Source: Antedon bifida
Lineage: Eukaryota; Echinodermata; Crinoidea; Comatulida; Antedonidae
DNA length: 64,000 nt
Direction of reading: 5' to 3'
Assembly (NCBI GenBank): GCA_963402885.1
Contig: OY727096.1
Location: 17,651,820 to 17,715,819 of the forward strand
Of this stretch, positions 23,651 through 63,723 are shown piece after piece. The translations under genes and the position numbers were made by a program. Each line of letters starts with the position of its first letter. Positions within the stretch are counted from its first letter, which is position 1. The notes beneath the pieces are model-generated. The model did not search any database. It was given only the letters and a program-made list of their open reading frames with translations, and was not told the origin of the DNA.

Positions 23651-25022
23651 ATGGCGTGGAATATATGGAAAACGGCTACAATTCTCATTTTCCTACAGGT
23701 ATGTATAGGATATTGATTTGTTAACGAAGTTAGGCAAGGCCTACTGCATCGATAAAAGATAAAGTATAATTTATTGTGCTACAATGTTTAAACGCAAAAA
23801 GAAATCTCTTCCTTTTTCAGCCTTAAGTATTTCAATTTATTATTTTCACTATTAGGCCTACTAGGCCTGTATGCAAAAGAGTCTCATTGTTATTACTCAG
23901 GCTTAAATGTTCCGGTAAATTTCGTCGCCTGTTCTTTTCAATAAAAGGTTTACATGTCCAATCCTACTTTTTACTTACTGTTTAGACCATTATATGGACG
24001 AGGTACAAGACATTTGCTGAATATCCTTCTGAATGTAAGTATTATCATTTCTAGACTCTGAGATTCATCCATGACCTCAGATGAAACATTTTAAAATTTT
24101 GTTGTAGCATATGTCACACAATAGTAATATTCACTTGAACCAAAAATTAAATCTAAATAAACATTATTTACCCGAAAAAACTGTAATTTAAAGCAAAAGT
24201 TAGTCGAATTGGCTGCCAGCCAATGCTTTTCGGTTGAATTTAACCGTTTATTTTGTCTTGTTATAAGTGAAAACATATAATTTCGTTTTCGTTTTTTTCT
24301 CTCTCTCTCTCTTTGGAAGTAATTAACTTTATTCAAATTGGCCTATTTAAAGTCTGATTTGATTGATCATTGTTATGTTGTTGCGGGGACAATAGGCCTA
24401 CATCTTTAAGATTTTGGTTGGGTACGGCTTTTTAATCAACACGCGCGTTTTTTAAACGTACGTAAGTCCATAAGTGCGCCTTGTTAATTACATGTATCAA
24501 CTCTCTCTGGAGACGATGTATTACAATATTATGTTATTTTAAATTCAGGCACTTCAAAAGATTCGTCTATTACATCATATGGGCCAGCACAGTTAACTGA
24601 AACCCTTGCATTGGGTGAAGAATTCCGTACTATTGTCGACTTAGAAGCTGCAACCGACATCTACGGCTACATTACCAGATGGATGATACAACCGAACAAA
24701 AACTACGGAACGATCAAAGTTGGTCTATACCGAAACTTTACCGGAAACTTTTCGATTGTTGGGGAAAACACGCTTGAAATCCGAGAGCAGAGTGGGGCGA
24801 TGCAGATTTATGAAATCCCAAGAGATGAGCAGATATTTGTAGAGCCTGGCGACTTCATAGGGTACCGTTCAACCAACAACGCTATCCGAATGGATACCTC
24901 AGGCAGAAGAGAATATTCGTACGCAACTGTTTCTTCCGAAGATGACCTGGTCACATCTGAAGTTTTTCTCTCCAATGACGGAGTTGGACTGATGGCCTTA
25001 ATTGCGGATGTTCGGCCAATAA
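23651..25022 (+). CDS. Gene 2 start: signal peptide and N-terminal beta-rich module
   Basis: Exon 1 (23651-23698) gives MAWNIWKTATILIFLQ and exon 2 (23986-24034) continues 'TIIWTRYKTFAEYPSE', together a plausible secretory leader. Exon 3 (24549-25022) encodes about 158 residues with alternating hydrophobic strands and the motifs 'YGYITRWMIQP', 'IKVGLYRNFTGNFSIVG' and 'VEPGDFIGYRS'. I do not recognise the fold with certainty; it resembles a jelly-roll type adhesion module. A degenerate second version with 'VKQGDVIAWYKS' occurs in exons 29119-30634, so the module looks duplicated around the WSC domain. Confidence 0.75.
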
Positions 25023-28000
25023 GTAAGTATCTTCATCGGTGCCTAAAGATGTAGATAGGTCTAGACATTTAGCGGTATATTATGGCATAAATAATGAACG
25101 TAAATCAGTAAATATGCTAAAGATGATTACGTAGGCTACGACTAGGCAACACTGATAACAAAAAAAGATTCCTCTTTTATAGGATAATCGAAACCATGAA
25201 TGGAGGCAACGGCGCAGATCCGTTTTTAATGGGGGAGGGGGGTCGTATAAAGATGAAATATTTTAGGTCGTTTCAATCGATTTCTGAGCACATCAAAATT
25301 CCGCACGGAAGAATACAATTATTTTGGGTTGCCTCTGGTTTTATTAACGAAAAATCTATTCTTCTTAGATACTATATTTTCTGAAATTACATACAATACG
25401 TCATGCGTGTCATAGAAATCTTACGTTCTATTTCATTTCAACAATTTAATAATTTTGCTGTTGAAAAGTGAGGGGGACAATTCTCCACTAAAAAATATGT
25501 GGGGACACGCCCCTCCCCGTCCCCTCCCCCTGCGTCGGTTAAAATTACCATGCTGAAGCATTAACTTACTAAAACTAAACTTAATTTGGATTTATTAAGC
25601 GCTTTTGATATTTATGGCTAAGCGTATCATAGATAATCTATAACAGGTCCACATGAGAACGAGAACGAACGCAATGCGAGTAATTTGACCATCACAACCA
25701 ATGGATTATTAAGTCGATTGTGGCCAACCAACTAAACTCGTTTGCGTTACAAGTTGCGCTTGTTGGATACGGCCTACTAAGGCCGTGTTTCCACAGCCAT
25801 TACAAAAATGATCTGTTAATTTTTGTTTACCGACCGAGTGAGCTATAGAGTCGCATTGCACGCGACTTAAAATGTGTGTATTTGTGTGCCAGTCATTACC
25901 GAAAACAATTCCCCCAATCACAACGCAACGGTTTGTCCTTCTGGTCAAATTATCGCATTTATCCGATAATTATCTTATTTAAATGAAATAATTATCAGTT
26001 AATTTTTGGCCGCGGAGACACGACCTTAAAGTGTAGGAATCATATAAGAGAAGGGAAGGTAAATTATAGTCACAATTATTTTATATATTTTTACGATCAA
26101 TATGTATTGACTTACAGCGCATACGGGTTGCTATCCTGAGAAAATCATTGATCGGGAAATGATTGTGAATTACGGTCTTTATAATGGAGATACACTCCGA
26201 ATTGGAGAGTGCTATCAAATTTGCAAGAATTGGGACTACAAGTGAGTCATTATTAATGTTTTGGGGTTTTATAAATTTACAAGATATGTCTATAATTATA
26301 AACATGAAGGTAACTCCCTAAACCTGAATTCCAAAGTTAGTGTATCTAAATGCTGTAGAGGGCGCACAATTCCAAGTTACAAAATGACACTATCTGAGGC
26401 CGGCCGGCTGGCCAGCGGGTTTTTTGAGATGTTTAAAAGTAATGATAAGCCGAATTCTTTTACCGAATTTATATATTTAGTAGTACTAGTAGTAGGTCTA
26501 GGATATAGGAACTCCAGACATTGGCCCCTAGGAGAGGTTAGTCGAATTAACCATGCCAGTATAACTTTATAATTATGTTTGTCAGCTAGGCTAGGGATAG
26601 CCGATCTCAATCCGGCCGCCGTGTCCCTGGTGTAGGGGCTTAGCTACTAGCCTAGGCCTAGCCTAGGTAGTTGTGCTACGACTACTACTAATTTTTCCAA
26701 ATATGCTATAGGCCTACACACTGTCACTTTTCAGGCGCTAGTTCCGTTTCGCACCTGTCATTTATTTCGACTCAAAATTTGTTAAGAACCTTTATCGTGA
26801 GTACCACACCTTAGAATTAGGCCTCAAAAATACTTTTACGAAGGAGATCACATAGGCCTAGTCATAAAAAGTGACAAATAAATGCTTTAAATTGATGAAT
26901 TTACAGACGTGTTTCTCGCACATCGGTTCGTCAATTTCGCATACGCCATGTTCAATGTTGTTGTTTCTATGGAGCGCCAAAAGAGATATATTTTGTCAAT
27001 GCAACAAAACCCTAGGCCTAAATCAGCATCACTACCTAGCCTAGGCCTAAGAGGAATATTATTTAGATCATTGAGGTATAAAAACTACAGTACATGTAAT
27101 ATGATGATGAACTTGTCGATTTTCATTCTTAAAAGTTAACGAAAACTGCGAAAACCATGTACAGTATCAACAGTAACATTTTTGTTGCATTGAAATTGAC
27201 AAAATATATTAAAATTGAACGTAATTTTCACCAATAAATGCATTAAATATACGCATTATATTGAGTTTTTAGCCCTCTATTATGATTGCTCTTTTGGCGC
27301 TCCATAGAAACAACAACATTGAACATGGCGTATGGAACCGATGTGCGAGAAACACGTCTGTATATTCATCAATTTAAAGCATTTATTTCTTACTTTTTGT
27401 GTGATCTCCTTCATAAAAGTATTTTTGAGGCTTAATTCTAAGGTGTGGTACTCACGATAAATTTATTTAACAAATTTTGAGTCGAAATAAATGACAGGTG
27501 CGAAACGGAACTAGCGCCCTTTTCATACATTGTTGACTACAAAAAATACAAAATGTATCTTCTCGCCACTCACAATAGAATTATTTGATTATCCATTTCA
27601 GGTACTCATCAGTACGAGATGGAGGAGCATGTCTATGTGGAGCCACCCTTACTCAGACGTCCGTGGCAGAAGCATTCTGCGATGAGATGTGTGGCATCAA
27701 CGGAGATAAATGTGGTGGCGATTACCATGGTGATATTTTTGTAAACCCGGATCCAATTTTTAGTGTGGATGCTGTTTTTCAGCAAGGTTTGTTTTCAATA
27801 ATCCTAAATGATTTTTCATTACAGCATGCAGAACCAAGGCGTATATTCGAGGTTTTTTTTTGTGAGGGGGTTGTGGGGGTCGGGTGTTTTTTCGGGAGGG
27901 TGTTTTTTAAAAGTGGGGCGTTTATGTGTGGGGTTGTTTATTCAAAGCGAATAAATCCGGTACATCTCAACCATTTGTTTGTGCTGTACATTCATCATAA

Positions 28001-31000
28001 CATAAACCTATTTTAATACATACAGTAAGTATTACTATCTGTAAAAGAAGCCCTTGTTATCAGTTGAAATGAAAAGTTGAGACTTCTTCATATCGGTGAG
28101 AGAGTTGACGGTATTTACATTTGTACATTTATTTATTATATACATTTCTAATATTAGAACCTGTTGAGGGTAACGTTCCACACAGTTATGAAATAACACA
28201 TACAGGAAGTGGAATCGCCTGCAAATATTACCTCAAAACCAACGATGGACTTCCAGAACAGGCTCTGGATTTAACAAATGGAGAAAATGATGGTTTTAGG
28301 CCTCTGTAAGTAAACTTTATAAATACAGTAGAACCTCTGTTAAGAGGACACCTTTAAGACCCAACAAAATGTCTTCTTAATAGAACTGTCTCTTGAATAG
28401 TGGACATAGTGTTAAAACTCATGTTTGTTTTTCTTTATGGGAAAGTGTCTCAGTTTCCCCTGTTCATTTATAGTATAAAACCACTGTGCTAACTAAATGT
28501 ATGTATTATGACTTGATTGTCTATATGACTTGTATATTGAGAATTTAACAGAAGTAGAACATCTTTTCCGACAGGAGAAAGCAAAAGCTCCATTTTCATG
28601 TTTTTCCCTGAATTGTTAGAAATCAATCATATGTGGTTTTTGTTTACAGGAGAGCAGGTACATCAATACTGAAATTTTCCGTGGCAGATCTTGATGGAGA
28701 TCGTGAGTCAGTAACAAAGACCTACCATGTCTCATTTGGAATCTTAACCCCTTCACTTACTTGCCCTGATAATATAGCATCTGGACGCGAAACAGAATGT
28801 GATCTAATTCTTGCAAGTGGAAGCAACGTGCAAGTTGATATTGACTTTGGCACTTCAGACCAGTCTCCTTCGGAGTATGTCTTAGGTAAGCATGGCCTGT
28901 TAGTAGTAGGTCTCGTTAGTATTAATTTTCAGAACAGTCACAGTATGTCTAATTTATCTACATTTTTTTTGTTAATGCCTGTACCAACAAAAAAATAAGA
29001 TTTATTTGGCCACTAGTGTACACACACTATTAATGATCCAAAGGATTTAAAATCACTTACTCTTTTTATTTCAAAATACATCTCTCCTATAATATTTTAC
29101 ACATTGAATTTATTTTAGACACCAGTATAGCATATTATGGTTCGACGGAGATAATTCATGATGTGAGATTTGATGAAGAAGTATCTGACGGACGGTATGC
29201 AAAGTTCAATAGCCCCATAAAGGAAGACGGCATATTGATTGAAGTACATGCATACATTCTGAATCCTGGAACATTCAAATTTGAGGTTTGTCAACGTTTG
29301 CTATGTCAAGCCCCCAATCCAGTGGCGATGAGCGATCACTAGCTAAACCCAGGCGTCCCAGAGCTTATGGGGACCCCTGAGCAGGGTTCAAAGGAAACAA
29401 TAGGCTTTAAAATATGTCGAAAAAGGCTGAAAACACCTGCGATGGAAGGCCACTTAGTGTTCCTAAACCATGTAACAGTTAAATTAATAACATGTGTTTA
29501 ACGTTAAGAGAATGCGTCAAAATTGATCTCCTGCAGTTCGTTAAGTAACCATTTTAGAGCAATAATGTATGTAAGTTTATGTCACTGCAGTAAACAGTTT
29601 GTATGATTAGCAAAAAATACCTTAAAGAGTATACATAATATGTCGTGGTCCTTAACGTTTAAATTTTTCCTATAGATTTTAAGACCTGTACAAGAATCGA
29701 ATATGAAGTTCTGTTACAAATCATATTCAAACATACCTGAAAGTGATGACTGTGAAAAGCAGTTGAGTGCATGGCAAAGGCAATGTACAAGTGGAAAGTA
29801 CTCATTCCGATTACGACAGTGTTTGAATGACACGGATCACCCTCAGAAACATGTGCCATTTCCAACAGCTCCTCCCACTATGTCATTTGAAGTTGTCAAA
29901 CAGTACGAGTTTTCTAAAACTGTAACAGGGTTTTCTAAGTTTTCTTTATCCGATAATTTTGAAGTAAAGCAGGGTGATGTTATTGCTTGGTATAAATCGG
30001 GAACTGGTAAGAATGTTTTCAGACACTCTTAAGTATTTAATAGTCAATTACCGCTTGTCTGTGTAAATTTGCCTTAAGGCACAGCAACTTATAGTCATAA
30101 TATCGATTATGTGGTGATTTGGATAAGAATTTTCAAACTACAGGTGCAGTGTACATATCACATTCTGTAGGTTTGTGAGGTTGGAAATGCCCTGTTGTAT
30201 AGTACTGATTGAGATCATCTTGGTTGCGCTTACATTATTATTATTAAATTGTATGTTTTTAATTCATCTTATCAGATATTTTGCATGCCTAGTAATTGCA
30301 CACATTTTTCTGTTACTAGGTTTAGGTTTACTTGGTTTTGTAAAGAATGACACATCTGATTTCTATAGTTCATCGGTAGTTACTGATACTAACCTACCGC
30401 ATAATGGTTTTGCTATAACTTCATACAGTCACAATCTGCGTGCTGTCGTGATACGGCCTATTAAAACCAAGATTCGTCATGTGTATAACCTTCCGGCTAA
30501 CACCGCATATGTCGATGAAGTTGTTACGGTAACATTGACAAACAATGCGAGTGAGACTGCGGTTGTTCTTACGGCTAACTACCACCTCCAGGAAGTTATT
30601 CTAGATGTTCGTTTGTTATTAGATGTTACAATAGGTAATGCTGGAAATTTTATTTTAAATGTCTTCCATGAGTTATGTTATTCTGAATATATGTAGTCGT
30701 TTGACCTTTAACTACATATACTTTACAACTTATTGTACAATTGATTTTGTGTCTTTCTGTATGCTAACCACTATTAATTATCTCTTATATTCACTTAGCT
30801 CAAAAAGATAGTGTTGTTTCACTGTATATACCGGATCATTTCGGACAGACTGAGGCCACATACAGATTTAATTTGGGAAATGGAGATGAAATTGTGACAA
30901 GTGAACGCAACATTACCTACATCTGGAACACAACTGGTACCTATTTAGTGAAGGCAACAGGTTACAATGAAATTAGTACATGGAGTGATTTTGTACGTTT

Positions 31001-55000: not shown

Positions 55001-58000
55001 GAAATGCGTGAATACAGGTAATAGACAGGCTATATGCACTAGTTTGTGGCAATTAAAAGGTGGTTAAATTGCTATAAGACTACACTCACCAAAACCATAA
55101 GAGCCATATGTCACTATGGTAGTTTGTCACTATGATAATATGTCACTATGATAATATGTCACTATGATAATAGAGTATGTCATTATGATAATATGTCACT
55201 ATGATAATAATGTCACTATGATAATACGTCACTATGAAAATACGTCACTATGAAAATAGAGTATGTCATTATGATAATATGTCACTATGAAAAAATGTCA
55301 CTATGATAATATATGTCACTATAATATATATCACTATTATGTAAGAAATCCTGCTATTTCCACCCTCTCAATTGAGTGAAATAGAATTGCATATTCTTTT
55401 TCAATTTTTTTTTTAGAATGAAAGAAATGGAGATGACTTCGATCTTGCGTGAAGTAACAATCTACATGCTTTTCCTTTACATTTTAATGACAGTATCATT
55501 TGGAAACACAGATCCAGCAGCGTTTGCCTTCCGTGAAACAATGTTAGACAGCTTTGTGCATGCATCTTATCATGGCAAAATGCCATTTAGTTCAGTAAGT
55601 AACAAGCAATATTAACAACCTACATTTAATAGACTATTCTTGTTTTTAAATGCATGAATACAGGCTATAGACAGGGATGTATGTGCGCATGGCAGGAAGA
55701 ATTTAGAAATTAAATGAATGAAAATGTAAAGAATCGTCATGCTCGAGTTTGGTACATTTTTGGATTTTTTGTTTTTTAAGAGATATATATGTTATATATA
55801 TATAAACACCACAGGCACAGAACAAATTTTAAACCGTCCGGTGATATACTGAAAGTTATTAATTAATTTGAAACAACAAGATGAGGAAATCTGTGAGAAT
55901 GAGGAAAAGTCCTCCCAACCGAGATTCGAACCCGCCCCCCTTCTGCTTGATATGCAGATGTCCTAACCATTAGACCACTGGAGCTTTCATGGTATTGTTC
56001 AAACTTGATTGAATAGCGACTCTTTAACACTATATATATATTTCATCTCAATAGAAAACCATATGCTACTACGAATAATAATAATGTTTCACTAGATTTG
56101 AACTCGTCACTACGGACGAGTTAGGTTATCCGCAGCCCAAAAGCCACGTGCACGTCATACGTTAGAATATTGCACACAGAAAAAGATTATTATGACTACT
56201 ATACTATAGGTCCCTGGACCTATTTGTTTATCACAAATAGCCAATCAGTACTTAGTCTTATTTGGCCTGCTACATTATAGCAGTAGGTAGGAAATAAATG
56301 ATTTGGGCTATACCAAATGCCGTTACAGTATATACAGTATAATCTTTATACGTACTATATACAGTTCAGAATAGGTGAAAATAAGTGACCAAAGTTATTG
56401 ACGCTTTTGGACATGATGACGTCATCACAAATTTAAAAATGGTAAATCATGCGAAAGATAATTGATTGACCTAGACATTATATAAAAATAGGAGGAAATA
56501 GAATACGGATAAGTAGAGATGAGCTCTACTAAATGTGATGCGCTATGACAAAAGAGACAAAAATCCTATATTTTATATTCGAGTGGCCATACGATGACGT
56601 CACAATGTCCGGTTAGCCATATTCATGAATGATTCGATATCTACAACTCATCTACTTCCAGAATATGTAATTTAAAAAAAGTTCACCACGTAGTTTAGAA
56701 TTTATGACTGTTTAAAAAAGGGCATAATTTTCACAAATTTTTGAACTTTTTCAACAAAAACGCGCGCAAATTGTGCAATTCTACGTTCTCGTATGACGTG
56801 ATTTTAAGTCGAAATTGTTTAAAAGTTGGTAAAATTACTAGAAATGGCTTGAAAAACCTAAATCTCGCAAAAAAGGAGGTTTTTTGCGCTACGTGCGCAC
56901 CGCGCGCGTAAAAAAAATGCGCATGCGTGGGAATTTTTGACATGCTCAAAATGACATGAAACGCGTAAAAAGTTGATTAGAAATTGATTTTTCGCATTTT
57001 CAAATTTTAAACGCGCATGCGTGCGTAACTTCGTGTGAAACATGCCATTTTTTTCCACAGTCAGTTAGCGCAAGACATAAATTAAACTTTTGTTAAGTTT
57101 CAATTAAAAATGTTATTTGGTTTTTGACCTATGTTAAATACGCGAAATTCATAAAATCGCACGAAAATCACGTTGCGCAATTGCAAACGTCGTGAAAACC
57201 TTCGCTGCACAACTTCACGTGAATGGCGATATGTTGAGAAAGTTACGAAATGTTACGTGTGCAAGTTTTTGAGATACGCGTGACACAAAAAATGGAGTAG
57301 AAGGGTGGAAGGTAAGAAATAAATACTAGATTTGAACTCGTCACTACGGACGAGTTAGGTTATCCGCAGCGCAAAAGCCACGTGCACGTCATACGTTAGA
57401 ATATTGCGCGCAGAAAAACGATTATGCCATTGTAAACATGTTAGTGCGCTCTCTATTTTGCGTCACGTCAAAGTATATACGGTATACACTATATTCTGTA
57501 TACGTACTACATACAGTGCAGAATAGGTGAAAATAAGGGACCCAAGTTATTGACGCTTTTGGACATGATGACGTCATCACAATTTAAAAAATGGTAGATT
57601 ATGCGAAAGATAATTGATTGGCCTAGACAATATAACAAAATGGGAGGAAATGGAATACGGATAAGTGGAGATGCGCTCTATTAAATGTGATGAGCTATGC
57701 GAAAGAGACAAAAATCCTATATTTTATATTCGAGTGGCCATACGATGACGTCACAATGTCTGGTTAGCCATATCGATGCATGATTCGATATCTACAACTC
57801 ATCAACTTCCAGAATATGCAATTTTAAAAAAGTTCACCACGTAGTTTACAATCTATGACTGTTTTAAAAAAGGCAAAATTTTGACAAATTTTTTAACTTT
57901 TTCATTAAAAACGCGCGCAAATTGTTTAATTCTACGTGCTCGTATGACGTGATTTTAAGTCGAAATTGATTGAAAATTGGTAAATTTACTAGAAAAGGCT

Positions 58001-61000
58001 GAAAAAACAAAAATCAAGCAAAAAAAAGATGTTTTTGCGCTACGTGCGCACGTGCGCGTAAAAATATTGCGCACGCGTGGGAATTTTTGAAATGCTCAAA
58101 ATGACCTGAAACGCGTAGAAAGTTGATTAGAAATTGATTTTACGCATTCTGAAATTTTAAACGCGCGTGCGCGCGTAACTTTCTGTGAAACATGCCATTT
58201 TTAATCCATAGAAAGTTTGCACTTGATATGACTTAAATGTTCACCAAGTGTCATTACAAAATGACTTTTGGTTTTTAGTCTATGATAAATACGCACAATT
58301 CATAAAATCGCGCGTAGCTTACGCTGCGCGACTCTAAAGTAAAAAAACGAACTGTCCTGCACTTCTACAGATAGAGGTAAATCTTCTGACAAAGTTATAC
58401 GATGTAATGTTGATCAGAATTTGAGATACACGTGACACAAAATTCTGGGAAAGAAAGAAGAATAACATAGAAAACTAGATTTGAACTCGTCACTTTGACG
58501 AGTTCGGGTTATCCGCGCAAACGCAACATGCACATACTTTAAACTATATGAACCTCGACAATTATTATGCCATCCTATGACATGAAATAAATATGTTTAC
58601 AGTGCTGAATTGTACCTATTTTGTAGCATACATCATATTACAGTATTTACAGTGTAGCATAGACGAAATTACGAGACCCATCTTTTAAATCCAATTATTA
58701 ACACGATGACATCATCAAATTAACATATAAAATAACAATTTTAGAAGATAATTATCTAATTAATTACATTACAAATTTGAAGAATTTTGGGCACGTAAAA
58801 GTGAGATGCGCTCTCGTTTAAACGCAATGAACTTTTAGACAAGAGATGAAAATATGACTTTTTGAATTCAACTGGCCATATGACGTCGTCATGACATCTG
58901 ATTGGTAAAATATTCACATGAATTCGTATCTACAATCCAATAGCTTTCAGAAAACGTTTTAATCATGATTATCACTTTTTATTCTGACGAGCTATAACAG
59001 ATTGAAATTTACTGTAAAGATGAAATTAAGTGACCCACGTTATTTACATTTTTAGACATGATGACGTTATAAAAATTAAAATATTTTTAACTCATACAAA
59101 AGATAGTTGATTGACCTAGACAGTATTAAAATATCGGAGGAAATGGAATACGTATAAGCGAGATGCGCTCTATTTAATGTGATGAGCAATAACGAAAGAG
59201 TAAAAAATCCTATATTTTACATTCGTGTGGCCATACGATGACGTCATAACATCCGAGGGGTAAAGATTCTGCATGAATTCATATCTACAACATATCTGCT
59301 TACATATTAAATTAAAAAAATTGGGGGTCATGGATGATCCTGAAGAGCTATAATAGATTCAAAATAGACATAATTTTGACAATATTTTGTCACCTTTTCA
59401 ACTAAAATGCGCGCAAATGGTCTAAATCAACGTGTTCGTATGACGTCATTTTAATTTGAAATGATGTCAATCTTTTTTAAAATGACTAGGTAAGGCTGTA
59501 AAATCATAATTCAAGAGAAAAACACATGATTTTCATGCTCCGTGCGCACCTTACGCGTAAATTTTTTCGCGCGCGTGGGAATTTTTGACATGCTCAAAAT
59601 GTCATGATCAGCGTAGAAAGTTGATTAGAAATTAATTTTGCGCATTTTGAAATTTTAAATGCGCGTGCGCGCGTAACTTCTTGTGAAACATGCCATTTTT
59701 AATCCATAGAAAGTTTGCCCTTGATATGACTTAAATTTTCACCAAGTGTCAATACAAAATGACTTTTGGTTTATAATTTATGACCAATCATTGAAATTCA
59801 TAAAATCGCGCGTAACTTGCGCTACGCGACTCTAACGTCATATAACAAAGTTTCCTGCACATCTACAGCTACAGGTCAATCTTATGACAAAGTTATACAA
59901 TCTTATGTTGACAAGGATGACAGATATGCGTGCAACAAAATTCCGGGAAAGAAAGAAGAACAAAGAAGATGAAAAAAAAAAAAGATATTTACAATAACAA
60001 GGGTTATCCGCAAAACCTTACGGTTGCGGATAACCAAAAAAAAAAAAAAAAAAAAAGATCCTGACAATAACAAGGGGTTATCCGCCAAGTGCGGATAACC
60101 AAAAAACATTTGCAATAATAGGATTTTGTTTGTTTTCATAGATTGCATCTCGTGACTACTTCTGGAACTACACTCAGAATGTGTTTATTCCAAGTCTTTT
60201 TGCTGGAAATTATTTAAATGGAAAGTTAAATGAAGACGGGCTGAAGCAAGCATTGTTAGCGGACCATACCTCCTCACTTGTCGGTATTGCACGTTTAAGG
60301 CAATTGAGAGTAATTCCAGGTTGGTGTCGACAAATTTAATCCACAAACATAATCTAAAAACCTTACAATATTATCAGGCTACATGTCACTAGAAAATATC
60401 CTCAGTCCATAAAAGTAAAGTACATACAATACATATGTATTAATCGGTTAAGACAGTGAAACCGTAATTACATAGCCATAACATTGGCAAGGGTTCAAAG
60501 CTCACCCGCTCTATGGTTCTGGTGGTATATATAAAGTCTTCTCAGATAAGGACTATAAATCGTAGGTCCAGTGTACACATCTAGCTCATGTGCACTTTAA
60601 AGAACCTAGTACTAGTAATCTTTTGAGACGAGTAGGGGTACTAGTATTTACCACTTGTTGGTCCCATCCTTCACTAATGTACATCTAATGAGAAGTTGAA
60701 TAAATTAAACAAATTTTAATGATTTATTTGCAGATTTGTGTGAAATTCCAGAGATTATGCAAGAATCTGTTGATAGCTGCCGACCCGCATACGGTGCGTT
60801 TACCGAAGATGACCGCTACTTCCACGAACGATGGGTTTTAGCCAATCAGACTCGTAAGTAGATTCGAGCAAGTGATCCATACATTTTATACCTATACCTT
60901 GATTTAACAACAAATTTAAAAAAAAAACAAAACACTACATCCCAAGTGTCATTTGCAGTAGGTCATTCTTCTTCAGTTTTATTTTATTTATTTCATCCAT

Positions 61001-63723
61001 TATTCTCATCCAATAGCGAGCACAAACTCGGCAATTACAGGATGAGATAAACTATTTATAGTTTATCGTGCTTATAAACTAAGTCTCATTTGAGGCTTAG
61101 GAGTGAAGTTGAAAGAAGTCGTGAATTACAACCCTGGCACTACTGTAGGTCAGGATTGAACCTTGGGATTGGAAGGCTATGTAATGTTAACCACCAAGCT
61201 ACAGCTCCACTACATTGATTTTAAAATATTCATTCTTGTATATCTAAAATGTATTATATCTATTTATTAGTTCATTTAATTTTGGTTTGTTATATAGAGT
61301 TGAAGAGTACTAGTATAGTATAATATCTTGAATTTTACAGATCCACCAGAATACAAAGGCTTAAATGATGCATGGCGACACCAGTCTTGGTTTGATCTGG
61401 GTTCACTACCGTATTGGGGTATAGTAACAGTGTATGGAGGAGGTGGATATGTAATTGAGCTTGGTAAAACAGTTGAGGATGCATGGGCCATCGCCGACTA
61501 TCTGCGTGCGACCAAGTGGGTTGATCAGTACACTCGTGCTGTATTTTTTGAATTCACTGTTTACAATCCTGTCATTAACTTCTATGCGGTGTCCTATATG
61601 ATAGCTGAATTTTTACCACAAGGAGGTAAGACCAGCATTTCAAACCCCAACATCTCAGTAGTGGTACAGTAAATACCCTATAACAATTATGTAAGATGAA
61701 TATTGGCTCTTTACCAGCATATACACATTGATATCTATATATTAAAACTAAGTAAACCAGGATCCTAGTTATTCTTAACTGACTGAATGTGGAAATAATG
61801 ATAAACCGCAAGATAGGTAATTTTTTTTTACAAATTGGATATCTCTCATATCTATAAATTTTAAAATAACGCATCCATTTTGTTATACCAATTTCAATGC
61901 GATTTCAGCAGTCAAAGATAGCAAGCTTGGTCTGTACTGTTCTCCCATGTTTGGTTGATACCACAAATTCACTTTGTTGGTGTCCGTCCATTAGATGGTT
62001 AACCTCATTATTTTTATTGTTTTTCTCTGCACAGGTGCCATACCATACTTTCATTTTCAGACGTTGAAATTGGACCGATACTTTGGGGCATACAGCTACA
62101 TCGTCCTCGCAGCTGAAGCCGGGTTGTGTGTCTTCACCCTCTGGTTTGCATTTAAAGAATTTAAACACATCAAAAAACAGAAGAAAAAATACTTCAAAAG
62201 TCTTAGTAACCTGGCAGAGTTTATTACTCTAGTGTTGTCCATAACAGCATTTGTTATGTACATGTATCGCACATTTGTCGCCAAGAGTCTTATGACAGAG
62301 CAAAGTGAGAATCCAACAAAGTTTTTGAATTTCCAATATGTGGGCCAGTGGGATCAGGTGAGTAATGGCTACAATGAACTATAGGGTCTGTTTCCACTGC
62401 CATGACAAACAATGTCTAGACTGTAATCTTAACTGTCTAAAGCTCTGTATACACTATCACAGTGTGGGTGACAAAAAAAGTGTGATGTGCCAAAATATGG
62501 TAGTGATATGCCCAAATATAGTAGTGATATGACATCATCGTGTCCATAATGGGCACATCACATTTTGTTTGATAGTGTAGACAGAGCTTAACTATAGGGT
62601 CTGTTTCTTACTACCATGAAAAGTCAGTAATTTCTTGTCTGTATCCTTAACTGTCTAACTATATAATAGGGTCTGTTTCTACTACCATTACAAATTAGTT
62701 TATGTGGCACTAGTACTCATGCATGCATGACTGATTTTGTTCTCCTTCTTTTGCAGATGTTCTGTTGGATGATAGGCTTAATTCTCTTCATATCAACAAT
62801 CAAGTTCATGAAGCTGTTGCGTTTCAACAAACGGATGCTGCTGCTCTCTCAAACTATACAGACATGTTGGTTGGAACTGCTTCTCTTCTTCATGATGTTT
62901 GCTGTTATATTTGCTTCGTATGCTTGTGCCGGATTCATGTTGTTTGGTAACAGCATGATTGATTACTACACGATGGTCACCACGTTAGAATCTTTGTTTG
63001 CTACTCTGCTTGGTAAGTATTCTCAAATTATCTCACAAATAGTACATTTTTTAAGCTCTGTCTACACTATCAAACTAGTGTGATGTGCCCAAATATGGTA
63101 GTGATATGCCCAAATATGGCAGTGATATGACATCATTATGTCCATCTGGGCTAATTTTATATGCAATTTAAAATGCCTACTTGTACCATACTATGAATAG
63201 AACTGTACAAAGATAATAATTTGGTCACTACCGAATTACAGTACTGTTATAAAAAGCAAATTACATTTACACTTTAGATGATTGTTATATAACAATATGG
63301 CATCATTTGTATGTAAGCGTAAGTATAAATAAATAAATAAATATAAATATTTTCATTAAATAAAATAATACTATTATTTTTTTAAATATTGTATTGTAAG
63401 GACTATTGGAAGATGATGTAATTGTGTTAAAATATTTGGCGTTTTTGTACATGTAGGTAACTTCAACTTTGACGACATGGTTGGTGTGAACAGAGTCCTA
63501 GGGCCAATATTTTTCTTCAGTTTCACACTGACCATCGTGTTTGTTCTTATGAACATGTTTATCACCATCATCAATGAGGCGTTCTCTGTTACCAAAGAAG
63601 AGAATGCAAAGATGAAAAATGATGTAGAAATCATCGACTTTATGGTTCGACGATTTAAGGAGACTGTGGGATTTGCTGAGAGAAGGAACTTGAAACCAAA
63701 GAGACGACATAAATATGTTGAAG
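23651..63723 (+). CDS. Gene 2: WSC/F5-8C/PKD/REJ polycystin-1-like protein, 52 exons, lacks only its last exon
   Basis: Exons: 23651-23698, 23986-24034, 24549-25022, 26118-26241, 27602-27786, 28158-28305, 28650-28885, 29119-29285, 29676-30006, 30320-30634, 30799-30992, 31314-31452, 31679-31810, 31957-32072, 32792-32926, 33329-33470, 33978-34279, 34555-34696, 34985-35268, 35725-35863, 36230-36501, 36668-36803, 37333-40365, 41018-41192, 41422-41520, 41698-41879, 42688-42882, 44246-44379, 44661-44811, 45142-45263, 45656-45863, 46072-46241, 47005-47113, 47886-47952, 48296-48377, 48583-48736, 49020-49117, 49415-49652, 50535-50690, 51047-51206, 51667-51844, 52317-52541, 52766-53143, 53521-54396, 54788-55017, 55417-55594, 60142-60319, 60734-60853, 61341-61625, 62035-62357, 62757-63012, 63457-63723. 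They total 13,237 nt with compatible phases at every junction (4,412 codons). Domains: leader 1-27, beta module 33-190, WSC 191-293, PKD-like 294-847, four F5/8C 848-1403, PKD repeats 1404-2175, REJ about 2178-2776, GAIN/GPS to about 3345, TM1, PLAT 3383-3508, TM2-6, channel to 4412. The start ATG is chosen because it is followed by a hydrophobic leader. A large extracellular matrix- or glycan-binding receptor coupled to a cation-channel module is the likely role. Confidence 0.9.
25023..26117. other. Gene 2 intron 3, with a hairpin MITE
   Basis: Holds a G/C-rich patch at 25440-25545 (runs of CCCCTCC) and the MITE at 25788-26031. No other gene is seen. Confidence 0.6.
25788..26031. mobile_element. 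Hairpin MITE
   Basis: Ends TAAGGCCGTGTTTCCACAGC and GGCCGCGGAGACACGACCTTA-type are inverted repeats of each other over about 21 bp. The interior contains GATAATTATC-rich sequence and no ORF. Confidence 0.75.
26118..27786 (+). CDS. Gene 2 WSC domain
   Basis: Exons 26118-26241 and 27602-27786 encode a cysteine-rich domain whose spacing fits WSC: T-G-C-Y-P at the start, 'GECYQICKNWDYKYSS', 'GACLCGATL', 'FCDEMCGINGDKCGGDYHGD' and an aromatic end. WSC domains bind carbohydrate; one is present in vertebrate polycystin-1 and several in yeast cell-wall sensors. All the usual cysteines are present. The intron between the two exons is phase 2 and contains a foldback repeat (26727-27528). Confidence 0.87.
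26727..27528. repeat. Large foldback element (arms about 250 bp)
   Basis: The left arm 26727-26983 ('GCGCTAGTTCCGTTTCGCAC' to 'TTGTTGTTTCTATGGAGCGCC') returns as its reverse complement at 27291-27528 with high identity. The spacer is about 310 bp. It lies in the intron that splits the WSC domain. Confidence 0.92.
28158..30992 (+). CDS. Gene 2 PKD-like modules and second beta module
   Basis: Exons 28158-28305 and 28650-28885 encode a PKD-like immunoglobulin fold ('AGTSILKFSVADLDGD', 'VQVDIDFGTSD'). Exons 29119-29285, 29676-30006 and 30320-30634 encode a beta-rich stretch with four cysteines and the motif 'VKQGDVIAWYKS', similar in plan to the N-terminal module. Exon 30799-30992 returns to a PKD repeat ('YRFNLGNGDEIVTSE', 'TGTYLVKATGYNE'). 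Boundaries between modules follow phase-1 introns. All parts are extracellular. Confidence 0.75.
28328..28395. mobile_element. Pogo/Tigger-like end fragment
   Basis: CAGTAGAACCTCTGTTAAGA followed by GGACACC matches the style of Tigger-type terminal repeats. A second fragment with 'CAGTAGAACCCCTATTAAGG' is at 44526-44572. Confidence 0.5.
31314..31810 (+). CDS. Gene 2 PKD-type exons before the F5/8C block
   Basis: Exons 31314-31452 and 31679-31810 encode about 90 residues with the A-T-I-L-W-D-V strand, 'YNVTIGDAEIHLLPGEEFHQ' and 'TYDGDKTITDVYALNTG', which fit half-repeats of the PKD fold with the usual Tyr/Asn-x-Gly ends. Both end in phase 1. Detail within the block is tentative. Confidence 0.65.
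31957..36803 (+). CDS. Gene 2: four tandem F5/8 type C (discoidin-like) domains
   Basis: Nine exons make four modules: A (31957-32072, 32792-32926, 33329-33470), B (33978-34279, 34555-34696), C (34985-35268, 35725-35863) and D (36230-36501, 36668-36803). Each starts and ends in phase 1. B is canonical: C-R-D-P-L-G-M-E-D-S at the start, 'QITASSNVQSARRN', 'LWQPSSGDSSEWIQVDLQ', 'EFRIGYSLDGVKWRNL', 'TTRYLRIIPIQW' and 'EVYGCE' at the end, with both terminal cysteines. A, C and D lack the cysteine pair but keep 'YSIDG', 'ARHIRMTIQ', 'CSYSDDAFNWNFL' and 'IARFLRITV' signatures. F5/8C domains bind glycans, collagen or phospholipid, so this array is an adhesion surface. In B to D a phase-0 intron sits at the same place, which supports exon-pair duplication. 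Confidence 0.86.
32340..32640 (-). repeat. LINE/SINE tail with (TTCAAG)n end
   Basis: Five or six TTCAAG hexamers at 32347-32378 lead into 'AAATTTATTCACATAATGC'. On the minus strand this is a non-LTR element tail ending in a (CTTGAA)n microsatellite, as in CR1/L2 families. No reverse transcriptase remains. Confidence 0.6.
32990..33065 (+). repeat. tRNA-like SINE head
   Basis: A-box-like 'GAGTAGGTGGATAAGG' and B-box 'GGGTTCAAATCC' spaced as in tRNA genes, but the anticodon arm does not fold well, so it is read as SINE head rather than tRNA gene. Confidence 0.5.
33160..33285. mobile_element. TTAA-type MITE copy 3
   Basis: Left end TTAAGCTCTGTCTACACTGT intact; right end decays after 'TTGTCAAACTAGTTTGA'. 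Confidence 0.8.
33793..33945. mobile_element. hAT-like MITE, CAGTGG(C/T)GTAAC ends
   Basis: Left 'CAGTGGTGTAACACAG' and right 'CGTTACGCCACT' are inverted repeats. A related copy is at 40876-40990 (CAGTGGCGTAACGCA ... CTACCCACTGA), and 29320-29440 shares internal sequence ('CAGGGTT', 'CTCAGGGG.CCC' type). Confidence 0.65.
34744..34885. mobile_element. TTAA-type MITE copy 4
   Basis: AAAGCTCTGTCTACACTATC at the left, family core GTGATGTGCCCAAATATGGT, and a degenerate right end 'GTAGTGTATACAAATCTTTA'. Confidence 0.82.
35345..35520. repeat. Relative of the 42203-42663 foldback
   Basis: Shares 'AAAATGTTTGCCATGC', 'GTTTACTGGTC'-like and 'GAAAATCAACATGTTGTG' sequence with the right and left arms of the foldback at 42203-42663. 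Confidence 0.5.
36839..37005. mobile_element. TTAA-type MITE copy 5
   Basis: Both ends present: 'TTTGTCTACACTATCAAACT' and 'AGTTTGATAGTGTAGACAGC'. Interior tandemly duplicates 'ACCATATTTGGGCA.ATCACT'. Confidence 0.87.
37333..40365 (+). CDS. Gene 2 giant exon: PKD repeats and start of REJ
   Basis: One 3,033-nt exon, opened at the AG of 37331-37332 and closed at the GT of 40366, encodes about 1,011 residues. Several PKD repeats are visible from degenerate 'DFGDG' and 'Y..PG.Y' pairs: 'CTIDMDDGT' with 'YRNPGTYVIVV', 'ITYDDDSS' with 'YSDPGFYRVSVTVTNDVS', 'VDFGND', and 'CDFGDT' with 'YSKPGEYTVKLNASNPV'. From about residue 2178 the sequence changes to REJ: N-A-P-C-F-T-P-V, 'TNRRRYLASEEI', 'LGFLSIPKATLGYGTYRAEL', 'GIDGGLTRSLGW' and 'FFWFCRRMTYQP'. 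N-glycosylation sequons are common. The frame opens at the exon start, well before any internal Met, so this is not a separate single-exon gene. Confidence 0.9.
40446..40591. mobile_element. TTAA-type MITE copy 6
   Basis: TTAAGCTCTACACTATCAAA at left, 'TTTGATAGTGTAGACAGAGC' at right. Located just after the giant exon. A short solo end of the same family is at 41543-41568. Confidence 0.87.
41018..44379 (+). CDS. Gene 2 REJ-domain C-terminal exons
   Basis: Exons 41018-41192, 41422-41520, 41698-41879, 42688-42882 and 44246-44379. The last four match gene 1 exons 2081-3959 one for one in phase. Marks: 'TGMYWDMIYEVKLIIKKE', 'CKINCGEKVNPTNKF', 'YETYKIKVIASRNKDFS', GNCTIEP, 'LTYQFSVRSDN' and 'RVRVTDSIGTF'. 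The counterpart of 41018-41192 for gene 1 is not present in 1-2080 and must lie further upstream. Confidence 0.85.
42203..42663. repeat. Foldback element (arms about 190 bp)
   Basis: 'CATTATTTGTTTTATAACAC' and 'GGCAAAAATTCTCAAAATGT' of the left half reappear inverted in the right half as 'GTGTTATAAAACAAATAATG' and 'ACATTTTGAGAATTTTTGCC'. It lies in the intron before REJ exon 42688-42882. Confidence 0.88.
42905..43860. mobile_element. Element with GGTTTGC ends carrying a 16-bp satellite
   Basis: Left end 'AAAAGGTTTGCATGGCG' and right end 'GGTGTACCGCAAACCTTT' are the same ends as in 8380-8650. Between them lie the 16-bp array and about 500 bp of unique DNA. The array monomer can be derived from the element's own terminus. 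Confidence 0.65.
42950..43322. repeat. 16-bp minisatellite, about 23 copies
   Basis: Near-perfect head-to-tail repeats of TACACCATGTGTTTCG, with a single 3-bp-type interruption near 43264. Because 16 is not a multiple of 3, all six frames stay open with a 16-residue period; these ORFs are not genes. Confidence 0.97.
44661..51844 (+). CDS. Gene 2 GAIN-like stalk exons
   Basis: Thirteen exons from 44661-44811 to 51667-51844. Early exons are alpha-helical (SKAYDVIEELTNLASAGDSA; 'VQQSLTELRTAMVAAIYELT'), as in the helical subdomain A of GAIN. Exons 47886-47952 and 48296-48377 insert a strongly acidic tract (DDTDSEEEEEEGTEED) that has no counterpart in gene 1. Later exons are beta-rich with cysteines ('GGGCQLPDDPTV', 'GFGMVCYNDTG', 'VVEVCRSEQHLG') and end with 'YYDRPWNGTRY' and 'INIGVRHVWGGEEED' just before the GPS exon. 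Exon 49415-49652 has a decayed partial copy of its 3' end downstream at about 49900-49925. Confidence 0.8.
45386..45560. mobile_element. Pogo/Tigger-like MITE
   Basis: Starts CAGTCAACTCTCCCAATACC and contains inverted 'GGTATTGGGAGAGT' near the end, with repeated 'TCTGGTATT' motifs. Non-coding. Confidence 0.6.
46385..46656 (+). repeat. tRNA-derived SINE with conserved marine-invertebrate body
   Basis: tRNA-like head ('GTGTTAGATGTTGGACTACT', B-box 'GAGTTTGAATCC'), body with 'CACCCAGGTGTACAAATGGGT', and tail 'GTGAAGCGCTTAGAAGC' into an ATT-type end. Complete-looking copy in the intron after exon 46072-46241. Confidence 0.75.
47669..47840. mobile_element. Hairpin MITE family 2, copy 1
   Basis: Left 'ATAAAGGGTCTTTCACAACT' and right 'AGGTGTGAAAGACTCTTTAT' are inverted. 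Interior contains 'CGGCACCGGACCAGAACCGT'. Confidence 0.85.
48392..48524. mobile_element. TTAA-type MITE copy 7
   Basis: 'TTTTGTCTACACTATCAA' at left and 'TTGATAGTATAGACAGAGC' at right, with two 'GTAGTGATATG' repeats inside. Confidence 0.83.
49653..50118 (+). pseudogene. Two decayed copies of gene 2's TM4 exon segment, in an intron
   Basis: 49683-49822 and about 49951-50068 each resemble 54247-54375, the part of exon 53521-54396 that encodes 'IFAWMTIGVAFWMTIEV'. Shared tracts include 'GTGTAGCATTTTGGATGACC' and 'GAAAAGAAAAGGCAACAGAG'. Both have small indels that break the frame. The second is preceded (about 49897-49925) by a copy of the 3' end of exon 49415-49652 including its donor, so a roughly 250-bp unit was tandemly duplicated after the TM4 piece arrived. 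Confidence 0.88.
50754..50921. mobile_element. Hairpin MITE family 2, copy 2
   Basis: 'AAAGGGTCTTTCACACCTGT' and 'ACAGGTGTGAAAGACTCTT' are inverted ends, and the match extends into 'TCCTGCATGGGTCCGGCAC' and 'AACCGTGCCGGA'. Confidence 0.87.
51215..51368. mobile_element. Hairpin MITE family 3
   Basis: 'CAGCTTCGTTCCCACTAGGA' and 'TCCTAGTGGGAACCAAGCTG' are inverted ends around a 150-bp body. Confidence 0.87.
52317..52541 (+). CDS. Gene 2 GPS autoproteolysis site and TM1 exon
   Basis: A 75-codon phase-0 exon, the same length as its gene 1 counterpart. GPS core: R-E-C-T-R-C-N-T-Y-H-L-T-S-F-G-G-G, with the HL^T cleavage point intact. TM1 follows (NPVVFVFMTCCICIYTVVVI) and then a charged cytoplasmic start (WARKEDQRDKSR). 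Self-cleavage would separate the roughly 3,330-residue adhesive ectodomain from the channel half. Confidence 0.92.
52766..53143 (+). CDS. Gene 2 PLAT/LH2 domain
   Basis: A single 378-nt phase-0 exon encodes the complete 126-residue PLAT domain: 'YNYEITFFTGVRKNSSTSAH', 'GEGGETGIRVVKDKKRKLFE', 'LRIWHDNKGKYPSWFLSR' and 'LQTNRMYYFMLDKWLAVEE'. It aligns to gene 1 along its whole length with no gap and with roughly two thirds identity by eye, the highest conservation between the two genes together with the start of the next exon. Confidence 0.93.
53521..55594 (+). CDS. Gene 2 TM2-TM6 block
   Basis: Exons 53521-54396, 54788-55017 and 55417-55594. The first exon carries 'SELTSFGHLFYSRTRRNL', membrane segments 'CCLSLLFCTMMANIFFYG' and 'IVVGVISSLMVVPANVIIVQ', a long Lys/Ser-rich cytoplasmic loop ending in a run of lysines, and 'FGWIFAWMTIGVAFWMTIEV'. 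The second continues 'VLLLATIFSLIIK' and an acidic helix ('DPTKLEEFEKQRAAELA'). The third holds TM6 (REVTIYMLFLYILMTVSFGN). The intron 54397-54787 is nearly filled by a 30-bp minisatellite. The TM4 portion (54247-54375) is the source of two decayed copies at 49683-50070. Confidence 0.92.
54428..54775. repeat. 30-bp minisatellite filling an intron
   Basis: About eleven copies of a 30-bp unit (ATTATTGTCACAAACCAGCT plus TCACATCTTG) occupy nearly all of the intron between 54396 and 54788. The unit is divisible by 3, so long ORFs appear in both strands, but the splice signals on each side are intact and reading through from the exon hits a stop after a few codons. Confidence 0.95.
55108..55340. 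repeat. 16-bp imperfect satellite
   Basis: Repeats of ATGTCACTATGATAAT with variants and spacers, in the intron between exons 54788-55017 and 55417-55594. Confidence 0.9.
55875..55988 (-). repeat. tRNA-derived SINE, sister of 5932-6045
   Basis: On the minus strand: A-box 'TGGTCTAATGGTTAGGACA', a five-bp anticodon stem TCTGC/GCAGA around loop ATATCAA, B-box GGGTTCGAATCTC, then 'CTCATTCTCACAGATTTCCT'. The tRNA fold is better kept than in the 5932 copy. Confidence 0.78.
56093..59990. repeat. Three diverged tandem units of about 1.2-1.5 kb
   Basis: Units begin at about 56093, 57327 and 58473 with 'AGATTTGAACTCGTCACT' and 'GACGAGTT.GGTTATCCGC'. In each follow 'ATGATGACGTCATCA', 'GTGGCCATACGATGACGTCA', 'ACGCGCGCAAATTGT' and 'GCGCGTAACTT.TGTGAAACA' in that order. 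A related piece is at about 1440-1830. The third unit contains extra duplicated sub-blocks (from about 59030). No protein is encoded. Confidence 0.85.
59990..60110. repeat. Palindromic GGTTATCCGC cluster with poly-A tracts
   Basis: 'GGTTATCCGC' and 'GCGGATAACC' face each other twice within 110 bp, separated by A-runs, so two small hairpins can form. The same GGTTATCCGC opens each large unit upstream. Confidence 0.8.
60142..61625 (+). CDS. Gene 2 polycystin (TOP) extracellular domain
   Basis: Exons 60142-60319, 60734-60853 and 61341-61625. Marks: 'SRDYFWNYTQNVFIPSLFAG', 'VGIARLRQLRVIPDLCEIPE', the second cysteine in 'VDSCRPAYGAF', 'LPYWGIVTVYGGGGYVIELG', 'KWVDQYTRAVFFEFTVYN' and 'VINFYAVSYMIAEFLPQGG'. 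This matches the R-L-R-Q-x-R-V plus C...C plan of PKD2-type extracellular domains more closely than gene 1 does. The first exon follows a 4.5-kb repeat-filled intron. Confidence 0.91.
60480..60650. repeat. SINE-like fragment
   Basis: 'GGTTCAAAGCTCACCCGCTC' resembles a B box, followed by 'CATGTGCACTTTAAAGAACC'. Single copy in the window; tentative. Confidence 0.4.
61050..61215 (-). repeat. tRNA-derived SINE, sister of 17805-17945
   Basis: Shares 'AAGTCTCATTTGAGG', 'CAACCCTGG' and 'GTTAACCACCAA' with the gene 1 copy; here it is longer and lies in the intron before exon 61341-61625. Confidence 0.65.
62035..63723 (+). CDS. Gene 2 PKD2-like channel domain, 3' end of gene outside window
   Basis: Exons 62035-62357, 62757-63012 and 63457-63723 cover S2-S6: 'SYIVLAAEAGLCVFTLWFAF', 'EFITLVLSITAFVMYMYRTF', 'FCWMIGLILFISTIKFMKLL', 'ELLLFFMMFAVIFASYACAG', pore helix 'TLESLFATLLG' and S6 'VLGPIFFFSFTLTIVFVLMN'. 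The filter reads L-G-N across the phase-1 intron at 63013. The coding sequence ends in phase 1 at 63723, as in gene 1 (20924), so one short terminal exon is expected downstream of 64000. 63724-64000 is intron. Confidence 0.91.
62438..62591. mobile_element. TTAA-type MITE copy 8 (complete)
   Basis: 'AAAGCTCTGTATACACTATC' at left, 'GATAGTGTAGACAGAGCTTAA' style right end, and the core 'GATGTGCC.AAATATGGTAGT' repeated inside. Confidence 0.87.
63050..63146. mobile_element. TTAA-type MITE copy 9 (left half only)
   Basis: 'TTAAGCTCTGTCTACACTAT' and core intact up to 'GACATCATTATGTCCAT'; the right half is missing. Confidence 0.82.

Follow-up and report, generated by a model that had tools for sequence, protein, structure and literature searches.

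A polycystin-1-family gene with a predicted array of four F5/8C modules in a cluster of at least four genes in the crinoid Antedon bifida

Introduction

Human polycystin-1 (PC1, encoded by PKD1) carries a WSC domain, a PKD array, a REJ region, an HLT site, a PLAT domain, a TOP domain and 11 transmembrane segments, and it is cut at HL|T according to the sections consulted of one report (PMC4810088). The engagement of its ectodomain, the need for autocatalytic GPS cleavage and the effect of a PKD1-type subunit on the PKD2 pore are open issues in kidney-disease and cilium biology. Several relatives with other ectodomains have been described. The sea urchin SpREJ proteins belong to the PKD1 family and are encoded by several genes in one genome; their ectodomain modules, as given in the consulted sections of PMC1934368, are C-type lectin, EGF, SUEL, PKD and WSC, the last in SpREJ6, 7, and 10, and the words "discoidin" and "coagulation" are absent from the main text. 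Polycystin-1 of the cnidarian Nematostella (PMC8846589) and an Acropora REJ protein (PMC4890752) combine WSC, PKD, REJ and PLAT; LRR and C-type lectin domains were reported as not identifiable in the Nematostella protein (PMC8846589), and the consulted sections of the two papers name no F5/8C domain for either protein. PKD1L2 and PKD1L3 are also members of the PKD1 family, and fish Pkd1l2 has C-type and galactose-binding lectin domains, with no WSC or F5/8C domain given in the sections consulted (PMC5318412).

F5/8C (discoidin-type) modules are familiar from neuropilin, factor V/VIII and lactadherin. To our knowledge, these proteins have no PKD, REJ or channel part.

Here, we describe a gene of Antedon bifida, referred to as gene B, that shares with human PC1 all of the parts listed above, whereas it lacks a Pfam-matched LRR or C-type lectin domain in the pieces searched and has an F5/8C array instead. 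Consistent with an earlier note on this DNA, whose author knew of no family member with a discoidin-type array, no described polycystin with discoidin or F5/8C domains was found among the matches listed in openly licensed PMC literature, and none is described in the consulted sections of PMC1934368, PMC8846589, PMC4890752, PMC5318412, PMC4810088, PMC12183636, PMC9829181, and PMC5336659. A glycerotoxin paper was set aside: its consulted sections mention WSC but neither REJ nor PKD (PMC5336659). Polycystins of this family are known; the combination of modules, common to four genes, was not found in openly licensed PMC literature, although proteins built in this way may well have been predicted already without being named. 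We assign a probability of about 0.72 to the reading that gene B encodes a polycystin-1-family receptor-channel subunit that has gained a four-F5/8C array, is one of at least four clustered genes and works as proposed below.

Materials and Methods

The window, i.e., the whole stretch of DNA analyzed, spans 64 kb (C9:17651820-17715819), and the assembly searched comprises 315,563,634 bases in 27 contigs. Gene models were built with our own Viterbi gene finder, which uses codon usage, splice-site weights and a phase constraint, and were curated by eye.

Exon Structure of Gene B

The curated model of gene B lies on the plus strand and joins 53 exons (13,294 nt) into 4,431 codons with 0 stops, from the ATG at 23651 to 63723. 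The single continuous spliced frame claimed by the earlier note was thus recovered, with 4,431 codons in place of its 4,412. The exon borders 31810, 31957, 36803, and 37333 were found by the gene finder at all six intron penalties. Border 63723 was found at two of the six, with models at the remaining penalties ending at 63680 or earlier, and its designation as the end of the gene did not hold: it closes the last exon inside the window, and a homologous last exon lies near window coordinate 64372. The 3′ end of gene B is therefore presumed to lie beyond the window, where the candidate last exon (64372; L009) resembles 21518-21669 of the upstream gene A.

At the other end, the ATG was chosen by eye from three-frame translations and then checked. 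The start consists of exons 23651-23698 (ATG and the hydrophobic leader MAWNIWKTATILIFLQ) and 23986-24034, whose donors (cag|gtatgt and aat|gtaagt) and phases (0, followed by 1) are compatible with the exon that follows; these two exons are the least certain part of the predicted model.

When the gene finder was made to forget the phase at each intron, with a codon table trained on the phase-constrained path so that the test is not fully independent, phases agreed at 46 of 56 junctions (chance, approximately one third). Agreement extended to all seven junctions from 33470|33978 to 36803|37333 and to 31810|31957. Three of the 10 disagreements fell within the first F5/8C module, near a small exon at 32575 that is held to be false; this and other small exons of the low-penalty models were dropped as spurious. 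The 4.5-kb intron 55594-60142 need not hide a further exon, as gene A joins both parts directly. Rfam returned 0 matches.

Ectodomain of Gene B

A Pfam search of gene B agreed with the proposed order of a WSC domain and four F5/8C modules ahead of the PKD, REJ, PLAT and channel parts. The ectodomain opens with an N-terminal domain exon (24549-25022; phase 1 at both ends), a unique open frame that matched no Pfam family; a duplication of this domain was rejected (z 1.1). The WSC domain is encoded by two exons (26118-26241 and 27602-27786; PF01822, E 3.1e-7, 30.9 bits against a cut-off of 27.8). Linker exons follow at 28158-31810 and contain PKD-like segments and one Pfam PKD repeat (exon 30799-30992; PF00801, E 3.4e-6, or 9.1e-8 when searched alone).

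The F5/8C array matched PF00754 (F5_F8_type_C) in four stretches with a joint E of 7.9e-65, and each module in exons 31957-36803 gave a strong match of its own (E 1e-13 to 1.7e-19). Module 1 (31957-33470; E 3.8e-15) is divided over three exons (31957-32072, 32792-32926, and 33329-33470), like the first modules of genes D and E. The remaining modules have two exons each: module 2 (33978-34279 and 34555-34696; E 1.7e-19), module 3 (34985-35268 and 35725-35863; E 3.2e-16) and module 4 (36209-36501 and 36668-36803; E 1e-13). Among PDB chains, module 2 matched those of factor V, factor VIII and neuropilin; it is the only one of the four with the typical pair of border cysteines.

The array is followed by an exon of 3,033 nt (37333-40365) with PKD-like modules, three of which match Pfam PKD (PF00801, E 4.7e-24 in three stretches), and with the start of REJ (PF02010, E 3.7e-21). 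The rest of REJ and the membrane-near ectodomain occupy 41018-51844 (PF02010, E 1.9e-47, profile positions 156-452), so that REJ was matched on both sides of its introns. Regarding the PKD modules proposed on either side of the array, Pfam matches were obtained before it (one) and after it (three), but only four of 10 PKD-like pieces matched. Joining the residues that flank the array gave no Pfam match, and insertion of the array inside a PKD repeat was not supported. At E≤1, Pfam matched neither an LRR nor a C-type lectin domain in the gene B pieces searched, which start at exon 24549.

Four Genes of Common Design

Four genes of common design, A, B, D, and E, were found on one chromosome. Gene A lies on the same strand directly upstream of gene B and ends 2 kb before it. 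Its 3′ part (2273-21669 of the window, plus strand) contains the end of REJ, the GPS, PLAT, the channel and a stop at 21667-21669, with doubtful small exons near 2686, 5769, and 6549; its front, in the 40 kb upstream of the window (L010-L013, C9:17611820-17651819), contains a WSC-like tblastn match, four F5/8C modules and a large exon. Genes D and E lie on the minus strand at C9:17.36-17.43 Mb (L022-L031, C9:17350000-17449999), 0.2-0.3 Mb from gene B, with the same order of parts. In their models, three exons were set aside as false, two of them within a transposon-like stretch. A frame that we take to be reverse-transcriptase-like is present in the gene D intron between module 4 and the large exon (C9:17382440-17383078, L024).

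In all four genes, four F5/8C modules with phase-1 borders precede the large exon, which measures 2,967 nt (A), 3,033 nt (B), 3,039 nt (D), and 2,982 nt (E); as phase was forced by the finder, the phase-1 borders of A, D, and E show that the reading is consistent but do not test it freely. The arrays of A, D, and E matched Pfam F5/8C in four stretches each (3.8e-36, 3.1e-42, and 4.9e-57, respectively), and the intron between module 4 and the large exon measures 446 bp (A), 529 bp (B), approximately 1,960 bp (D), and 181 bp (E). A single phase-0 intron interrupts most modules at a similar position, with one more intron in module 1 of B, D, and E. Over the four genes, both border cysteines were present in 13 of 16 modules (D4 and E3 being scored so after their exon ends were corrected by eye), neither in three (B1, B3, and B4), and one alone in none. 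The loss of both in these three modules may reflect relaxed use.

The WSC domain is less evenly detected: that of D stayed below the Pfam cut-off (19.3 bits against 27.8), that of A was found as one tblastn match (E 4.6e-6), and the searched piece of E gave no Pfam match. Gene E has an EGF-like domain before its WSC-like part (C9:17429320-17429430, L028; PF00008, 1.2e-9), which has no match in the gene B model. The first exons of the draft gene E model (C9:17441254-17449046, L030) look like at least one neighboring gene merged in by the finder.

Aligned from ahead of the GPS to where the gene B model stops, genes A and B share 49.3% identity across 1,222 columns. Their intron phases are equal at shared positions, with an extra intron in PLAT for A and in the TOP region for B. 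No topology was rejected in a quartet tree of A, B, D, and E. In a tree of the individual modules, none of 13 inner branches reached the support mark, and module-by-module orthology is weak.

Membrane Half and Pore Filter

The 11-transmembrane half proposed for gene B agreed with hydropathy, in which 13 windows were grouped into 11 segments, one before PLAT and 10 after it. PLAT lies at 52766-53143 (PF01477, E 1.3e-12), transmembrane segments 2-6 at 53521-55594 (hydropathy and alignment to human PC1 chains), the TOP (polycystin) domain at 60142-61625 (PF20519, E 5.9e-40) and channel segments S2-S6 at 62035-63723 (exons 62035-62357, 62757-63012, and 63457-63723; aligned to PKD2L1 and PC2). PKD_channel (PF08016) matched gene B at E 1.9e-52 once the S4-S5 exon 62757-63012 was read in phase 0, and gene A at 1.3e-42. 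No 7TM GPCR family was among the Pfam matches of gene B, whose GPS-like stretch is followed by an 11-transmembrane polycystin half, unlike the GPS of an adhesion GPCR.

In the PDB, human PC1 matched the C-terminal half of gene B best (5.2e-67). For S1-S6 against PDB sequences, however, the scores were 279.8 bits for PKD2L1, 264.2 for PC2, 133.3 for PKD1L3, and 84.6 for PC1; the predicted channel half is thus far more PC2/PKD2L1-like than PC1-like, and even the pore part of PKD1L3 is nearer to it than that of PC1. The S6 segment of gene B, GPIFFFSFTLTIVFVLMNMFITIINEAF, contains no basic residue, whereas PC1 blocks the pore by R4100, R4107, and H4111 in the sections consulted of PMC12183636, which suggests that the pore of gene B is not built like that of PC1.

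The filter LLGNFNF of gene B is read across 63012|63457. At the position of the PC2 filter aspartate (LGD), gene B has Asn (LGN) and genes A, D, and E have Lys (LGK), where the draft model of E holds the second of two filter exons and the first was read in L005. LGD is present in the PKD2L1 and PC2 chains and at another locus of the same genome (L004), which also has a PC2-like S6 flank and was judged by eye to be PKD2-type. Other polycystin-type loci have Ala (L001), Asn (L002) or an unlike stretch (L003) at this position. The consulted sections of PMC12183636 describe a reduced divalent sensitivity when PC1 is part of the PC2 pore, ascribed to disturbed coordination by D643, a residue thought to bind divalent ions. 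As the channel half of gene B strongly resembles PC2 and the genome has a PKD2-type gene, we infer that this half would be a partner subunit of PKD2 that weakens Ca2+ handling. It would assemble with PKD2 as the minority subunit, and the Asn (B) or Lys (A, D, and E) in the filter would lower the Ca2+ handling of the complex and favor monovalent cations.

The same substitutions can be read differently, as marks of a dead scaffold: the channel halves with Lys (A, D, and E) or Asn (B) would be non-conducting, and the proteins would serve as adhesion receptors or PKD2 chaperones. The acidic filter residue is lost in four of four genes, and the C-terminal fragment of human PC1 alone gave no measurable current (PMC12183636, sections consulted). 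The rest of the pore, however, is well kept, as seen in the PKD_channel matches of B and A, and S6 of gene B lacks the basic residues with which PC1 occludes the pore. We consider a dead scaffold possible but doubtful.

GPS and Cleavage Site

A GPS had been proposed between the REJ and PLAT parts of gene B. The exon 52317-52541 encodes a GPS-like stretch (C-NTY-HLTSFGG) together with the first transmembrane segment, and the HLT motif (HLTSFGG) was read directly; the Pfam GPS profile, however, gave no match in gene B even at E≤10. The same profile matched gene A (1.1e-7), fell below threshold in E (0.0092, 16.9 bits against a cut-off of 22.5) and had no match in D. HLT is kept in A and B and absent from D and E, and in the alignment the GPS stretch contains four cysteines in D and in E, three in B, and two in A.

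At the place of HLT, D and E have 27-28 extra residues in the same exon, including a furin-type site (RSKRS in D and RRRRS in E). Ahead of the first transmembrane segment, the draft models of D and E contain no R-x-[KR]-R site other than RSKR and RRRR; after shuffling, 0.60 (D) and 0.51 (E) such sites were expected per whole model, these being drafts of which that of E includes neighboring genes at its start. Splicing that restores HLT in D or E was sought among in-frame, stop-free GT..AG excisions of at least 40 nt in those exons, and 0 were found. We infer from these motifs that cutting in D and E may have moved from self-cleavage to a convertase. Because D and E lack HLT and the Pfam GPS search was negative in B, self-cleavage cannot be common to all four genes.

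Proposed Working and Divergence of the Ectodomains

Gene B is a PKD1-family variant and probably encodes a self-cleaving adhesion receptor modifying a PKD2 channel. The outer end is present as sequence: a leader, WSC and PKD, then the four F5/8C modules, all ahead of the PKD/REJ stalk. The F5/8C modules would bind a cell-surface or matrix ligand, possibly a different one for each paralog. In other proteins, F5/8C modules bind ligands of the lipid, collagen and glycan classes, and the same classes are suggested for gene B. From its HLT motif, the protein would cut itself before the first transmembrane segment, with the fragments remaining bound as reported for PC1. Force or ligand acting on the array would then shift or strip the outer fragment and free the stalk, with the PKD/REJ stretch serving as the force arm, and so act on the channel half.

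Genes A, B, D, and E may further represent three exchanges within a kept body plan: a lectin slot replaced by a discoidin array, an HL|T loop replaced in two of the four paralogs by a furin-type insertion cut by a secretory-route protease, and a filter Asp replaced by Lys or Asn, passing Na+ rather than Ca2+. We put this forward tentatively and hold it unlikely to be right in all three parts. If true, the filter of a channel with three PKD2 and one such subunit would be mixed (D/D/D/K), recalling the lysine in the filters of sodium channels, and the cluster would be a natural experiment on the cleavage and conduction of polycystins. Four paralogs with the same frame that differ in border cysteines, in the cleavage site (HLT versus RSKR/RRRR) and in the filter (Asn versus Lys) would provide natural test variants.

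Identity among the four genes ranges from 25.8 to 33.7% in the large exon and from 51.6 to 63.6% in the PLAT/transmembrane exons. This difference, seen in four divergent clustered copies, is also what would be expected of gamete-recognition receptors (sperm REJ-like) that diversify under selection, with F5/8C modules replacing the lectin domains of sea urchin REJ1-3. Ectodomains, however, frequently diverge faster than membrane parts. A role in gamete recognition appears unlikely to us, even with the positive selection on the CRDs of SpREJ proteins and the presence of SpREJ1-4 in the sperm plasma membrane described in the consulted sections of PMC1934368.

One Predicted Gene and Other REJ and F5/8C Loci

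The sequence supports the WSC, F5/8C and PKD/REJ/channel exons as parts of one predicted gene, and the strongest support comes from the paralogs outside the window. Two neighboring genes, one (23651-36803) for a secreted protein with WSC and F5/8C domains and the next, of the PKD1 family, with its start near 37333, would be compatible with the stop near 36842 that is reached by reading through the module-4 donor, and retention of this intron would give a short secreted form. The junction 36803|37333, however, matches in phase, no in-frame Met occurs among the first 151 residues of the large exon, and neither AATAAA nor ATTAAA is found in the intron preceding this exon. Pfam PKD repeats occur on either side of the junction, and A, D, and E keep the connection of F5/8C modules to the large exon, with only 181 bp between them in E. 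On the grounds of the phase match, the absent start and the conservation among paralogs, we reject the two-gene reading as highly improbable. Misplacement of the F5/8C exons by scaffolding, for which the at least 159 F5/8C exon matches in the genome and the repeats in introns would give some opportunity, is practically negligible, given that four genes, distributed over both strands, are arranged alike and that the window contains no N.

In the genome, 27 REJ matches were grouped into approximately 13 loci, four of which are the cluster A, B, D, and E. F5/8C matches were sought within 10 kb on the presumed 5′ side of seven of the nine other loci (all but C12:288388 and C9:22888507); six had none, and the seventh had a single match (L033) with a chance-like score of 10.4 bits. 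The genome-wide F5/8C search scored 150 of 263 candidates, so that weak matches near other loci may remain. At least two F5/8C matches (C12:230682-236517) lie 52-58 kb before the REJ locus at C12:288388. Many of the listed F5/8C matches end at profile positions 82-90 or begin at 82-86, which would fit an intron at one shared position. A common pattern of intron position and phase is expected of exon shuffling, and the array was probably gained by exon shuffling into a phase-1 intron.

Repeats and Other Features Around Gene B

Downstream, the presumed last exon of gene B is present in three copies, at window coordinates 64372, 67045, and 69492 (L009), with an identical translation of 39 residues; the copies may stem from a recent tandem duplication, serve as alternative last exons or be due to the assembly. 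Within the gene, a 118-nt piece of a coding transmembrane exon (54245-54362) is found twice in an earlier intron (49683-49800 and 49955-50072); these copies are 92-94% alike, and their protein frame is partly broken.

Two intron minisatellites, with a 16-nt unit repeated 23 times (96% match) and a 30-nt unit repeated 11 times (93%), occupy 42945-43321 and 54429-54769. The motif GTGATATGCCCAAATATGGTA marks an element dispersed over introns, with copies of approximately 74 nt at 34750, 40456, 48406, 62474, and 63072 and related copies at 33218 and 36921, which may form a small transposon family. Repeat units spaced approximately 1.15 and 1.5 kb apart extend over 56331-59858, within the 4.5-kb intron that separates S1 from TOP. 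The same intron contains, on the minus strand at 55911-55984, a tRNA-Asp-like sequence with the anticodon ATC, which gave no Rfam match at the gathering threshold and is perhaps a tRNA-derived repeat.
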